Below are positions 21,574 to 27,724 of a stretch of 64,000 nucleotides of DNA, piece by piece. Source of the DNA: Persicimonas caeni (lineage in GTDB: Bacteria > Myxococcota_A > Bradymonadia > Bradymonadales > Bradymonadaceae); contig NZ_CP041186.1 of the NCBI RefSeq assembly GCF_006517175.1, positions 5,483,074-5,547,073 on the forward strand, in the 5' to 3' direction. Each line of letters begins with the position of its first letter. Position 1 is the stretch's first letter. The translations under genes and the position numbers were made by a program. Under the pieces are notes generated by a model. It saw only the letters and a list, made by a program, of their open reading frames with translations, had not been told where the DNA came from and did not search any database.

Positions 21574-23763
21574 ATGGAGAATTCACCAGCAGTCAACATG
21601 CTGGGGCAGTACAAACTGATTCGGAAGTTAGGAGAAGGAGGCGCAGGCCAAGTCTATTTGGCCCGGCATTCCATTCTCGAGCAAAACTACGCCGTGAAGG
21701 TCTTGCGGCGTGAGTTTCATGACAACGAGCAGTTTACCGAACGGTTTTTTCGGGAGGCGCGCCTCGCGGCACGTCTTGTCCACCCCAATATCGTCAAGGT
21801 CGTCACCGCCGACCGCTACGAGGATGCGTACTATCTAGTCATGGACTTCATCGAGGGCATCTCCCTCGAAGAGATGGTCGCGCATGGAGCGCTCGAGGCC
21901 CATCGGGCCGTGCGCTACATCATCCACGTGCTCGACGGGCTCGACTATGCGCACACGCAGGGCATGTTGCACCGGGACATCAAGGCCGAGAATATCTTGG
22001 TCGATGGTCGCGACGAGCCCAAGATCGTCGACTTCGGTCTGGTGACCGACGTCGAGCAACGCAGCCGGCTGACCGCGCCCAACGCAGTGGTCGGCACGCC
22101 GTACTACATGGCGCCCGAGCAGTGGCGAGGAGAAACACTCGACGCGCGCGCCGATATCTTCTCGGCGGGGGTGCTCCTGTACTACACGCTGACTGGCCGC
22201 TTTCCGTACCCGGGAACCTCCCCGGTGTCGGTGCTCCATCGTCTGACCAGCGGGACGCACGAGCCGCTCAACTCGGTGAGCATTTCGGGGGCCACCCCCC
22301 TGACGGCGCCGACGCTGGAGCTCGAGCTCGAAAAGATCGTCAGCAAAGCGCTGCAGCGTGAGCGCGCGTTGCGCTACGACTCCGCCCATCAGTTCGCCCG
22401 CGAGCTCAACGAATGGCTCGACGCCGCCGATTTGTCGGAGCCGGCCTCCTCGTTGGCCGAGTCGACGCGCCCGGCGCCCGGTACCCGAGACAACTCCCCA
22501 CTCGAGAGCGCTGATCAGCTCGCCAGTGCCGGCAAGCTCGACAGCGCCAACCAGCTCTCACGGCCGGCCACCGGCCACTATCATATCGCAGCAGAGGACA
22601 AACCGATGACCAACGAATCGCCCAACCTTGCCGTCTCGCCCGTCGAAATTGCCCCGAACACCTACTGGGTGGGCAAACGCCCCGATGACGAGATCTTCTA
22701 CGCCAACCCCTACCTTCGTCACTTCCCCGGCTCCGATGGCAATGACGACTTCAACTTGATCATCGATCCGGGCTCGAGCAAAGACTTCAGCGTGGTGCAG
22801 GCCAAGGTCAGCCAGACCATCGGCAGCATCAAGAACGTGTCGTCGATCTTCATCAACCACCAGGACCCCGACGTCGGCTCGTCGGTGGGTCTGTTACTGG
22901 GACGCTACACGCCCAAGGCCTACGTGCTGTGCACCGAGGACACCTGGCGGCTGGTGCACTATTACAACATTCCGCGCAAGCGCTTTGTGGCTATGGAGAA
23001 GTATCCGCGCGGGCTCAAGGTGCCCACCGGCCACAAGCTGGTGCCCGTGCCCAGCCCGTTTTGCCACTTCGTGGGCGCCATGATGCTGTACGATCCGCAA
23101 AACCGCGTGCTCTTCAGCGGCGACCTGTTTGGCGGACTGACCGACCGTGACGCCAAAGGACTGTACGCCGACGAGAGCGACTGGACCGGCATGCGCGCGT
23201 TCCACCAGATCTACATGCCGACCAACCAGGCGCTGCGCCACGCCATCGCTAATATCCGCGCGCTCGACCCGCCGGTCGAAATCATCGCCCCGCAGCACGG
23301 CCGCGTCATCCGCGGCAAGTACGTCCAGGAGTTCATGGACCGGCTCGAGCAGCTTCCGGTGGGGCTCGACGTGATCAACGATCGCTTCGCCTCCGAAGAC
23401 GAGCTGCAGGCGTGGACCACCGTGCTCAATCGCGTGCTGGAGGTCGCCAAGGTCGGCCTGGGTGATCAGGCCGAGGTGCTCTTGGCGGACGATCCGAACC
23501 TGAGCGGCATCATCACCTTTACGGGTCAAGGCATCGAGGTGACCTCGCTGGGCAAGACCTCGGTGGAGCGCGCGGTGCGCCTGCTGTGCGACCACTTGCC
23601 CCACGAGATGGCCAACTCGCTCAAGTACGAAGCGATCTATGCCTCCCAGGAGCTCGACCTGCCCACGCCGGTCATCGAGCTCGACGAGGATGGTCCCGGC
23701 GACAAGGACGAAGAGCCGAACAAGAGCGCCGATGCGACCTTCAGCATCGCTTCAGCGGAGTGA
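21574..23763 (+). CDS. Ser/Thr protein kinase fused to ODP/FprA-like di-iron MBL domain
   Basis: About 729 residues from ATG 21574 (GAGGA upstream); ATG 21556 and 21598 are alternatives. Residues about 14-285 are a complete Hanks kinase: GEGGAGQVY loop, AVKVL lysine, HRDIKAEN catalytic loop (H133), DFG, and GTPYYMAPEQ. After a Ser/Thr/Ala-rich linker, residues about 345-600 form a metallo-beta-lactamase fold of the flavodiiron/ODP type: NHQDPDVGSS (H429), GDLFGG (about D516) and PQHGRVI, which supply the His/Asp di-iron ligands. Oxygen-binding ODP proteins act as O2/iron sensors in spirochete chemotaxis. A C-terminal domain of about 130 residues is unassigned. I infer a redox- or O2-gated kinase. 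No transmembrane helix is seen. Confidence 0.88.
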   Translation: MENSPAVNMLGQYKLIRKLGEGGAGQVYLARHSILEQNYAVKVLRREFHDNEQFTERFFREARLAARLVHPNIVKVVTADRYEDAYYLVMDFIEGISLEEMVAHGALEAHRAVRYIIHVLDGLDYAHTQGMLHRDIKAENILVDGRDEPKIVDFGLVTDVEQRSRLTAPNAVVGTPYYMAPEQWRGETLDARADIFSAGVLLYYTLTGRFPYPGTSPVSVLHRLTSGTHEPLNSVSISGATPLTAPTLELELEKIVSKALQRERALRYDSAHQFARELNEWLDAADLSEPASSLAESTRPAPGTRDNSPLESADQLASAGKLDSANQLSRPATGHYHIAAEDKPMTNESPNLAVSPVEIAPNTYWVGKRPDDEIFYANPYLRHFPGSDGNDDFNLIIDPGSSKDFSVVQAKVSQTIGSIKNVSSIFINHQDPDVGSSVGLLLGRYTPKAYVLCTEDTWRLVHYYNIPRKRFVAMEKYPRGLKVPTGHKLVPVPSPFCHFVGAMMLYDPQNRVLFSGDLFGGLTDRDAKGLYADESDWTGMRAFHQIYMPTNQALRHAIANIRALDPPVEIIAPQHGRVIRGKYVQEFMDRLEQLPVGLDVINDRFASEDELQAWTTVLNRVLEVAKVGLGDQAEVLLADDPNLSGIITFTGQGIEVTSLGKTSVERAVRLLCDHLPHEMANSLKYEAIYASQELDLPTPVIELDEDGPGDKDEEPNKSADATFSIASAE

Positions 23764-24399
23764 CGCCTCGACCGGGCGCACGGCGAAGTCTCGGAGCGTC
23801 AGCCCCAGGCTTCGCTTGCGCCCGGTGACCACAAACTCGGTGGCGACTTCGCAGGTCATCGCCGAGATCATCATCGCCAGGGTGCGCGTCAACGGGTAGT
23901 CACACACGTCGTCGCGCCCCGTCGACGGCACGCGGTAGCGCTCGTTCCACACGACTTCGCCGTAGCCGTCGGCCATGCCCGCGTGCAGACAGGGCACCTC
24001 ACGCGCAGCCGCCCACCGGGTGAGTGCGCCGCGTGAGGCGCCGTTGTCGAAGCAGTCGAGGACCAACCACTGATCGGCCAAAAACCGATCGAGGTTGTCG
24101 GCCACCAACTCCACGGCCTTGAAGTCGACCTCGACCCCCACCGCCCGGTACAACTCATTGGCAAGCACGCGCGCCTTGTAGGCGCCGACATCGCGGCGCC
24201 CGTAGGGCTGCGTCGAGAGGTTGCGCTCTTCGATGCGGTCGCGGTCGATCACGGTGAGCTGGCCATAGCCCATGCGCACCAAGCTCTCGGCAATATTGGC
24301 GCCGAGCGCACCTGCGCCGCATACGGCGACCGGGTAGTCGGCGATGGCGGCCATCGCCGCTGCACCGCGCTCGAGTTGTTCGTGCATAAATATCGTCAT
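23752..24399 (-). CDS. E1-like ThiF/UBA adenylating enzyme
   Basis: 215 residues. Rossmann-like adenylation domain with GAGALG (G28,G30,G33), acidic D52/D54, RN..Q (R59,N60,Q64), K75 and D118, the residue set that adenylates the C-terminal glycine of ubiquitin-like proteins. C166 (in DDVCDYPLTR) sits where a catalytic cysteine would be expected; paired CxxC zinc knuckles of MoeB/ThiF are absent. It is the last gene of the operon that starts with the Ubl protein at 27412, and follows the 283-residue gene by one base. Its 3' end overlaps the convergent kinase by 12 bp. Size and lack of extra domains fit a dedicated partner of the 66-residue Ubl. Confidence 0.85.
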   Translation of the reverse strand: MTIFMHEQLERGAAAMAAIADYPVAVCGAGALGANIAESLVRMGYGQLTVIDRDRIEERNLSTQPYGRRDVGAYKARVLANELYRAVGVEVDFKAVELVADNLDRFLADQWLVLDCFDNGASRGALTRWAAAREVPCLHAGMADGYGEVVWNERYRVPSTGRDDVCDYPLTRTLAMMISAMTCEVATEFVVTGRKRSLGLTLRDFAVRPVEASLR

Positions 24400-24400
24400 T

Positions 24401-27493: not shown

Positions 27494-27519
27494 CAAAAAA
27501 CCGTATATGCAACGAACGG
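27494..27519 (-). terminator. Weak upstream terminator in the leader
   Basis: Minus-strand ACCGT..ACGGT (5 bp, 27515-27519 with 27499-27503) followed directly by TTTTT. Weak alone; it lies just before the strong terminator at 27457-27487. Confidence 0.45.
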
Positions 27520-27696
27520 TCTAGACGGGAGGGCCTCCTCCGTCGAGTTGATCACACGCCAGTGGGCGCAGGCACGAACTCGTCGAGCTCGCCTGTGCGG
27601 CCATGGAGATGTGATATGTTGGGTTCGTTTGTTTCATGGTTTTGCAGTCTCTCGGCGTTCCGTGAGGAACACAGTTTTTGTCAGCGACGGCTTTGG

Positions 27697-27724
27697 AGTC
27701 TAGTGCTTGTTTTTATGTTGTCAA
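27697..27724 (-). promoter_or_regulatory. Sigma-70-type promoter of the Ubl/Ro operon
   Basis: Minus-strand TTGACA (27719-27724), 16-bp spacer, TAGACT (27697-27702). It lies in an AT-rich gap only 22 nt after the stop of the large hybrid kinase, and would start transcription near 27690. Confidence 0.65.

Follow-up and report, generated by a model that had tools for sequence, protein, structure and literature searches.

Ro60/Rsr proteins bind the stems of Y RNAs, the Y RNA YrlA mimics a tRNA, and E1 enzymes adenylate the tails of ubiquitin-like proteins (Ubls). To our knowledge, Ro/Y RNA particles have been without a clear common function since the discovery of the human autoantigen, and a survey of RNA repair by Burroughs and Aravind from 2016 reportedly treats both TROVE proteins and tRNA-like RNAs. 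Here, we describe a cassette in which such components are joined, located in a 64-kb stretch (the window, whose positions are used as coordinates) of the single-contig 8.05-Mb genome of Persicimonas caeni. The cassette consists of four open reading frames (ORFs), which span 23752-27412, and two RNAs, all on the minus strand: a Ubl, RNA1 and RNA2, a TROVE/vWA protein, a 283-aa protein (p283) and a ThiF/E1-like protein.

With Ro60/Rsr and Y RNA the cassette shares the TROVE helical repeats, the vWA metal-ion-dependent adhesion site (MIDAS) and the encoding of stem RNAs beside the protein, but the protein taken singly scores under the Pfam cut-offs and is linked to a Ubl, an E1 and p283, and the stem RNAs, unlike Y RNA stems, have their own conserved CCCUAAC/RACUUG internal loop. 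In YrlA (Rfam RF02553), too, a stem carries a tRNA-like module whose T arm, closed acceptor and D arm are permuted; however, the YrlA model gives 27.4 bits here (gathering cut-off 69, E 8e-4), and the present RNA family also carries normal-order tRNA and 23S rRNA cargo. The RtcB RNA repair operon with rsr and yrlA has a Ro protein and a tRNA-like RNA in one operon as well, whereas here RtcB/RtcA is no constant neighbour and a Ubl kit is found instead. Bil, CBASS Cap2/Cap3 and operons 6a-6e (Iyer, Burroughs and Aravind 2006) resemble the cassette in having a Ubl, an E1-like protein, in some branches a JAB peptidase and possibly an E2-like protein, but here the partners are a ribonucleoprotein (RNP) and its RNAs. 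The PRTRC cassette, which also pairs a ThiF protein with a small putative Ubl (protein C), was considered and rejected (TIGR03736 scores 39 bits where 144.75 are required, and genes related to ParB were not seen). In the searchable, and partial, literature we found no paper in which TROVE or a Y RNA is linked to a Ubl or E1, or a Y RNA to mimics of rRNA, in agreement with the original prediction, which knew of no described system with all these parts. The component families are known, while the system and its cargo library appear to be new.

A scan of 84,980 species genomes yielded 80 loci mostly from Cyanobacteria, but also from Acidobacteriota, Chloroflexota, Planctomycetota, Armatimonadota and Parabeggiatoa, so that the genome of the window holds a far-flung member; the parts were then located with iterated profiles. 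The order Ubl, TROVE, p283, ThiF and the strand were identical in all 65 loci with at least two parts, 26 of which hold all four. In 47 genomes p283 or ThiF lies outside the flank, p283 being found elsewhere in 42 and ThiF elsewhere in 43, and the Ubl was recovered elsewhere in 13 of the 21 genomes without a flank copy, some of these genomes being incomplete metagenome-assembled genomes. Among 108 evenly drawn genomes of the cyanobacterial phylum, all four proteins occur in the same eight and in none of the others, a co-occurrence that common descent inflates; in two genomes (G094 and G117) the genes are dispersed, megabases apart, and still co-occur. A stem RNA is present in all eight cassette genomes in at least three copies, with single weak matches in seven others of the 108, and where the Ubl gene lies away from TROVE the RNAs often adjoin the Ubl gene. 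The original prediction had named frequent homologs of the vWA protein lacking the rest as the finding that would speak against it; such homologs are not common, the exceptions being four Planctomycetes. Gene content and order give good support to a single conserved system of TROVE/vWA, Ubl, ThiF, p283 and stem RNAs. That ordinary tRNA genes or pseudogenes merely happen to lie beside unrelated genes has next to no probability: ordinary tRNA genes do occur near some loci, such as the tRNA array at L060, but the four-way co-occurrence, the constant order and the covarying scaffold already contradict chance.

RNA1 folds with a minimum free energy (MFE) of -104.1 kcal/mol (z = -9.75) into an outer stem of 25-26 bp that leads through an internal loop to an inner helix, on which sits a core made up of a T arm, an acceptor hairpin and a D arm. 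This core is a circularly permuted tRNA, entered from the anticodon side and having a 6-nt loop that closes the acceptor; a permuted-tRNA scan of the 64 kb returned the RNA1 site only, and none in five shuffled windows. RNA2 has the same stem and conserved internal loop and a T arm, with an MFE z of -3.2. The permuted tRNA fold that had been predicted is thus seen in RNA1, while the claim of two tRNA mimics was half right, as RNA2 is a real member but, having no D arm, not a full mimic. Against covariance model R1, of which it is itself a member, RNA1 scores 112.1 bits (E 6.7e-21); RNA2, outside the training set, matches over the full model length with 43.9 bits (E 1.7e-6 over 0.7 Mb), and the two are the only strong full-length matches in their own genome. 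ARAGORN, and Rfam at its gathering cut-offs, find nothing in the window, so standard annotation misses both RNAs.

In an alignment of 32 RNAs, 97.2% of cells were paired and 24 of 30 pairs had changed on both sides, where four of the five helices had served to find the RNAs; the inner helix, which is independent of this selection, is 95.3% paired with four of six pairs covarying. With the model from this alignment, 205 matches (E up to 1) were obtained from 65 sources, and a stem scan gave 251 elements, which in oriented loci all lie on the cassette strand. By simple rules, these were assigned to 82 normal-order tRNA-like, 64 permuted tRNA-like, 36 short, 17 helix 69 to helix 71 (H69-H71), 8 sarcin-ricin loop/GTPase-associated centre (SRL/GAC) and 44 other cargoes. 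In the normal-order class a near-constant CAUAC:GUAUG stands in place of the acceptor stem and runs into the scaffold, which makes these RNAs unlikely to be working tRNAs; their anticodon arms hold U33 in 63 and a purine at 37 in 67 of 69 cases, with 26 different anticodons. As read from these folds, the permuted class would so display the acceptor/elbow end and the normal-order class the anticodon end. About 44 stem RNAs with unclassified cargo (e.g. L047:2997-3111, L050:5440-5555, L058:5682-5794, L071:3998-4241 and L077:5102-5348) may imitate other RNAs.

Two further classes carry ribosomal cargo. In the class of about 190 nt, cargo positions 38-69 match E. coli 23S 1909-1941 (H69-H71), at best with 96% identity over 28 nt (E 4e-9); among these matches, that of L033 falls in a merged element. 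The 3' part of these RNAs holds GGUAA..ACGGCGGCCGUAA, which in 23S stands directly before H69; the point of permutation of the segment thus lies in the H69 loop, and the H69 helix persists in the permuted order, with four of six pairs covarying. Rfam did not recognise this RNA, whereas the comparison with E. coli did. The class of about 212 nt contains AGUACGAGAGGA, the SRL, and a stretch at the GAC that Rfam scores as bacterial large-subunit rRNA with 47.5 bits (gathering cut-off 50, E 1.5e-13). Shuffled cargo gave scattered 12-18-mers only, and 12-mer BLAST matches of permuted RNAs to 23S 2421-2432 were disregarded as being at the level of the shuffles. The SRL and the GAC lie about 1500 nt apart in 23S and yet make up one factor-binding site, so that their joining in one RNA argues for a selected chimera and not a fallen rRNA fragment. 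At the level of sequence and predicted pairing, the comparisons show that in the stem RNAs a constant scaffold, an outer and an inner helix with a conserved internal loop between them, displays exchangeable mimics of translation RNAs.

This joined factor-binding site could also mean that the particle mimics the ribosomal A site, with SRL, GAC, H69 and tRNA cargo binding translational GTPases, RelA or release/recycling factors and restraining translation under drug stress. The induction of a TROVE gene by erythromycin, reported as dramatic for Chlorogloeopsis and left unexplained by the authors (PMC6424891), would fit such a role; many members, the window included, carry tRNA-type cargo only, however, and many tRNA types are displayed where factor binding needs none in particular, and we regard this possibility as improbable.

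The proteins were compared singly and as families. Searched singly, the 475-aa protein stays under the Pfam cut-offs, including that for Ro60 vWA, so the family profile was needed to reveal TROVE; with it, positions 25-314, from the helical part into vWA, match the solved TROVE proteins 9l5y/9kop (E 1.4e-5), and Ro60 9nen is matched at E 1.8e-5. The MIDAS residues D-x-S-x-S and T (D300, S302, S304, T362) are present in 34 of 34 sequences and the second Asp in 28 of 34. This supports a TROVE/Ro-type RNA-binding protein with helical repeats and vWA. One copy of the gene is present in the 8.05-Mb genome. Of the features that the original prediction had listed, the positions and order of the four ORFs, their tight spacing (17 bp and 1 bp) and the full MIDAS were all confirmed; the TROVE-like/vWA assignment holds by family profile and not by the single sequence.

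The AlphaFold model of the Ubl (predicted local distance difference test, pLDDT, 89.4) has the order strand-strand-helix-strand-strand, and its VIA structural neighbours are mostly ubiquitin-fold chains, matched over the full length at a modest Z of 4-5.4 and a root-mean-square deviation of 2-4 A. In an alignment of 40 sequences H3, R5, G8, S10, P61, E62, A63 and G66 are invariant, and a C-terminal glycine also ends the diverged set described below, in line with the glycine end claimed earlier. A PDB profile search gave no credible match, only weak matches to L23, and Foldseek with the model gave none under E 0.001. The structure prediction proposed earlier as a check for beta-grasp thus found the fold at these modest scores, and the 66-aa protein is predicted to be a beta-grasp Ubl.

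The ThiF protein scores 98.6 bits against Pfam ThiF (cut-off 28.1). Its alignments conserve GxGxxG, D52, D54, K75, D115, C137 and C166, which upholds the claim of full adenylation residues, and Cys137 and Cys166 are invariant even in the diverged branch. Its matches to the PADLOC E1-E2 models are partial, none being full-length. ThiF-family activation of small beta-grasp proteins often serves sulfur transfer (textbook knowledge), and the best NCBIfam matches of this protein are ThiF adenylyltransferases, all under cut-off. Read this way, the Ubl would be a ThiS/Urm1-type sulfur carrier that supplies RNA thiolation, the RNA substrates being offered by the Ro particle, and would not be conjugated to proteins. 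Neighbourhood clustering, however, gave no family of the size expected if a rhodanese, cysteine desulfurase or thiolase-like protein constantly accompanied the cassette, and we know of no thiolated sites in SRL and H69, which leaves sulfur transfer slightly more improbable than A-site mimicry.

The model of p283 (pLDDT 88.9) has a middle part (70-149) resembling an oligonucleotide-binding fold, with structural matches at Z up to 8.2, and alignment and model give a C-terminal domain of a helix, four strands, an invariant GIC(257)L and a helix. Pfam returned no family for p283 singly, as a family or as the C-terminal domain, a PDB profile search no credible match, and Foldseek with the model none under E 0.001. 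Compared with an E2 profile by hhalign (probability 4.7%, E 0.0085), GICLSGRDRDF falls on the E2 active site, without significance. Fold order and GxCL motif resemble E2, but with a profile comparison that is not significant an E2-like partner stays a hypothesis; the VIA neighbours hold no E2, an absence that we count as no evidence against one. A putative role as RNA-binding partner and a reading of helix, three strands and helix as similar to a double-stranded RNA-binding domain were also considered.

Diverged relatives in the window's own order, with TROVE at about 25% identity, have a p283-like gene, a Ubl-like ORF of about 90 aa and ThiF in one row; the Ubl-like ORF ends in RP(K/R)TPFG and its profile matches that of the Ubl end to end (E 7.8e-5). 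Two of these cassettes hold a JAB peptidase (Prok-JAB) over the Pfam cut-off, and some tRNA-like matches upstream of TROVE lie in two-helix stems. A complete cassette with several stem RNAs was found at 4849-15619 of the 595-kb uncultured phage LR756511.1 (L113), comprising Ubl (E 6e-20), TROVE (45% identity), p283 (E 8e-77), Prok-JAB and ThiF. The TROVE gene is further present on two cyanobacterial plasmids, one of which also encodes p283, ThiF and an SRL-type RNA. The presence of JAB beside E1 and Ubl would speak for a conjugation system rather than a sulfur carrier on its own, and conjugation of the Ubl is likely; the mobility on phage and plasmids would favour a role in conflict.

Table 1. 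Positions of the cassette features in the window and of related features in other loci (L numbers).
Feature	Position	Strand	Remarks
Predicted sigma-70-like promoter	27697..27724	(-)	TTGACA-16-TAGACT, upstream of Ubl
Ubl	27212..27412	(-)	66 aa, ends ...VRPEAVYG; nearly invariant tail RPEA(V/I/L)(Y/F)G
RNA1	26976..27151	(-)	modelled core 26990-27136; permuted tRNA-like
RNA2	26818..26947	(-)	model match 26821-26944; stem + T arm
TROVE/vWA protein	25270..26697	(-)	475 aa; helical-repeat N part + vWA with MIDAS
p283	24401..25252	(-)	283 aa, GTG start; OB-fold-like middle + Cys-bearing C-terminal domain
ThiF/E1-like protein	23752..24399	(-)	215 aa; Pfam ThiF
JAB peptidase	L107:11117-11782, L108:1005-1448		between Ubl-like and ThiF genes; relatives of window genome
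H69-H71 mimic RNAs	L018:139-331, L009:5035-5223, L010:3891-4083, L046:4607-4793 + 13 more		permuted through H69 loop
SRL + GAC RNAs	L046:8154-8364, L034:8437-8648, L008:8591-8806, L023:857-1068		usually downstream of TROVE
SRL + GAC RNAs	L006:11063-11299, L051:6782-6993, L066:10756-10967, L054:10854-11069		usually downstream of TROVE

Several features of the loci were recorded besides these. The promoter candidate of the window agrees with the consensus at 10 of 12 bases (expected number in shuffles 0.2) and is followed by a leader of about 285 nt (27413-27697, minus strand) before the Ubl, in which a hairpin and then a T run near 27455-27500 (minus strand) could be an attenuator. Converging on the ThiF gene, a Ser/Thr protein kinase fused to an ODP-type metallo-beta-lactamase domain is encoded at 21556-23763 (plus strand). 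In other loci, two proteins without a Pfam family often lie between Ubl and TROVE, one of about 153 aa (L003:5315-5770 and about 30 other loci) and one of about 240 aa (L038:4387-5091 and about 19 others), and a second vWA protein (VWA_4) lies downstream of TROVE in 11 loci (e.g. L073:7523-8323 and L049:8408-9232). A Pyrinomonadaceae locus (L060:2254-4328) has 20 ordinary-looking tRNA genes of many isotypes immediately before the Ubl on its upstream side, and L008 has a smaller array.

Anticodon nucleases, toxin RNases, ribotoxins and drugs commonly act on tRNA anticodon loops, the SRL, the H69-H71 region and the GAC. The cargoes imitate these sites, and we infer a bait or sensor function for them. 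In the mechanism that we propose, the TROVE ring would bind the constant stem, as Ro60 binds Y RNAs, with the cargo held out: the tRNA elbow/acceptor end in the permuted and the anticodon end in the normal-order RNAs, and in cyanobacteria 23S H69-H71 and SRL with GAC. The cargoes would serve as baits or sensors for attackers of translation, such as anticodon nucleases, rRNA-cutting toxins, phage effectors or drug-stalled states. Once a bait is bound or cut, ThiF would activate the C-terminal glycine of the Ubl, and the Ubl would be handed on, perhaps by way of p283, either to the protein caught or to the particle, which would thereby be marked or inactivated; in cassettes with JAB, this peptidase would take the Ubl off again. 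A Ro RNP that displays baits of the translation apparatus and is coupled to Ubl tagging is the best explanation that we can offer, one held tentatively and a little short of an even balance. The more specific proposal of a new bacterial or phage immune or stress machine, in which a Ro RNP bait library triggers Ubl tagging of the attacker or the damaged complex, is possible but more doubtful.

A repair or maturation platform would be a different use of the same particle, the cargoes tethering enzymes of tRNA/rRNA processing, modification or ligation, as proposed for YrlA with Rsr, and the Ubl being regulatory. Textbooks know Ro/Y RNA particles and tRNA-mimic Y RNAs as scaffolds of RNA quality control, a paper on jumbo phages describes TROVE as a platform for RNA repair (PMC7824862), and a TROVE gene rose by 4.5 log2 together with RtcB under co-culture stress (PMC11423583). 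But a ligase, nuclease or modification enzyme is never a constant neighbour, and SRL and GAC are mainly bound by translation factors and toxins, not processed together, so that we consider such a platform unlikely, if less so than the A-site mimic. It is plausible that the TROVE genes induced by erythromycin and in co-culture belong to the TROVE family of the cassette.

Several points weigh against baits coupled to tagging. ThiF/Ubl pairs can be sulfur carriers; the Ubl ends in YG or FG, not GG; p283 had no significant match among E2 enzymes; and PADLOC gave no match for TROVE, Ubl or p283. The four Planctomycetes (L070, L072, L074 and L076) have TROVE and one to four permuted RNAs, with no Ubl, p283 or ThiF in the genome. 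Cargo of rRNA type was seen in no locus outside cyanobacteria, rRNA-like motifs are absent from the window, which has two tRNA-type RNAs only, and a search of its own genome with one strict pattern found no rRNA-like cargo. The original interpretation, in which the Ubl marks damaged RNA complexes around a Ro particle, stands as far as TROVE protein, Y-like tRNA-mimic RNAs, Ubl and E1-like protein are one conserved system, but generic RNA quality control is less favoured, as the normal-order tRNA mimics and the rRNA mimics of the relatives point to translation baits. The co-inheritance across several phyla suggests a stress or defence machine, so far undescribed, that protects the translation apparatus.

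The RNAs of this Ro system reveal the targets that they imitate, tRNA from both ends and the main functional centres of the large subunit, some of them circularly permuted. Through the cassette, RNA surveillance is connected with a ubiquitin-like pathway of bacteria, for which we found no precedent in the literature searched, and the role of Y RNAs becomes open to direct tests in cyanobacteria that can be cultured. The stem RNAs would moreover constitute a family whose cargo is exchangeable and whose members ARAGORN and Rfam miss or call odd tRNAs.

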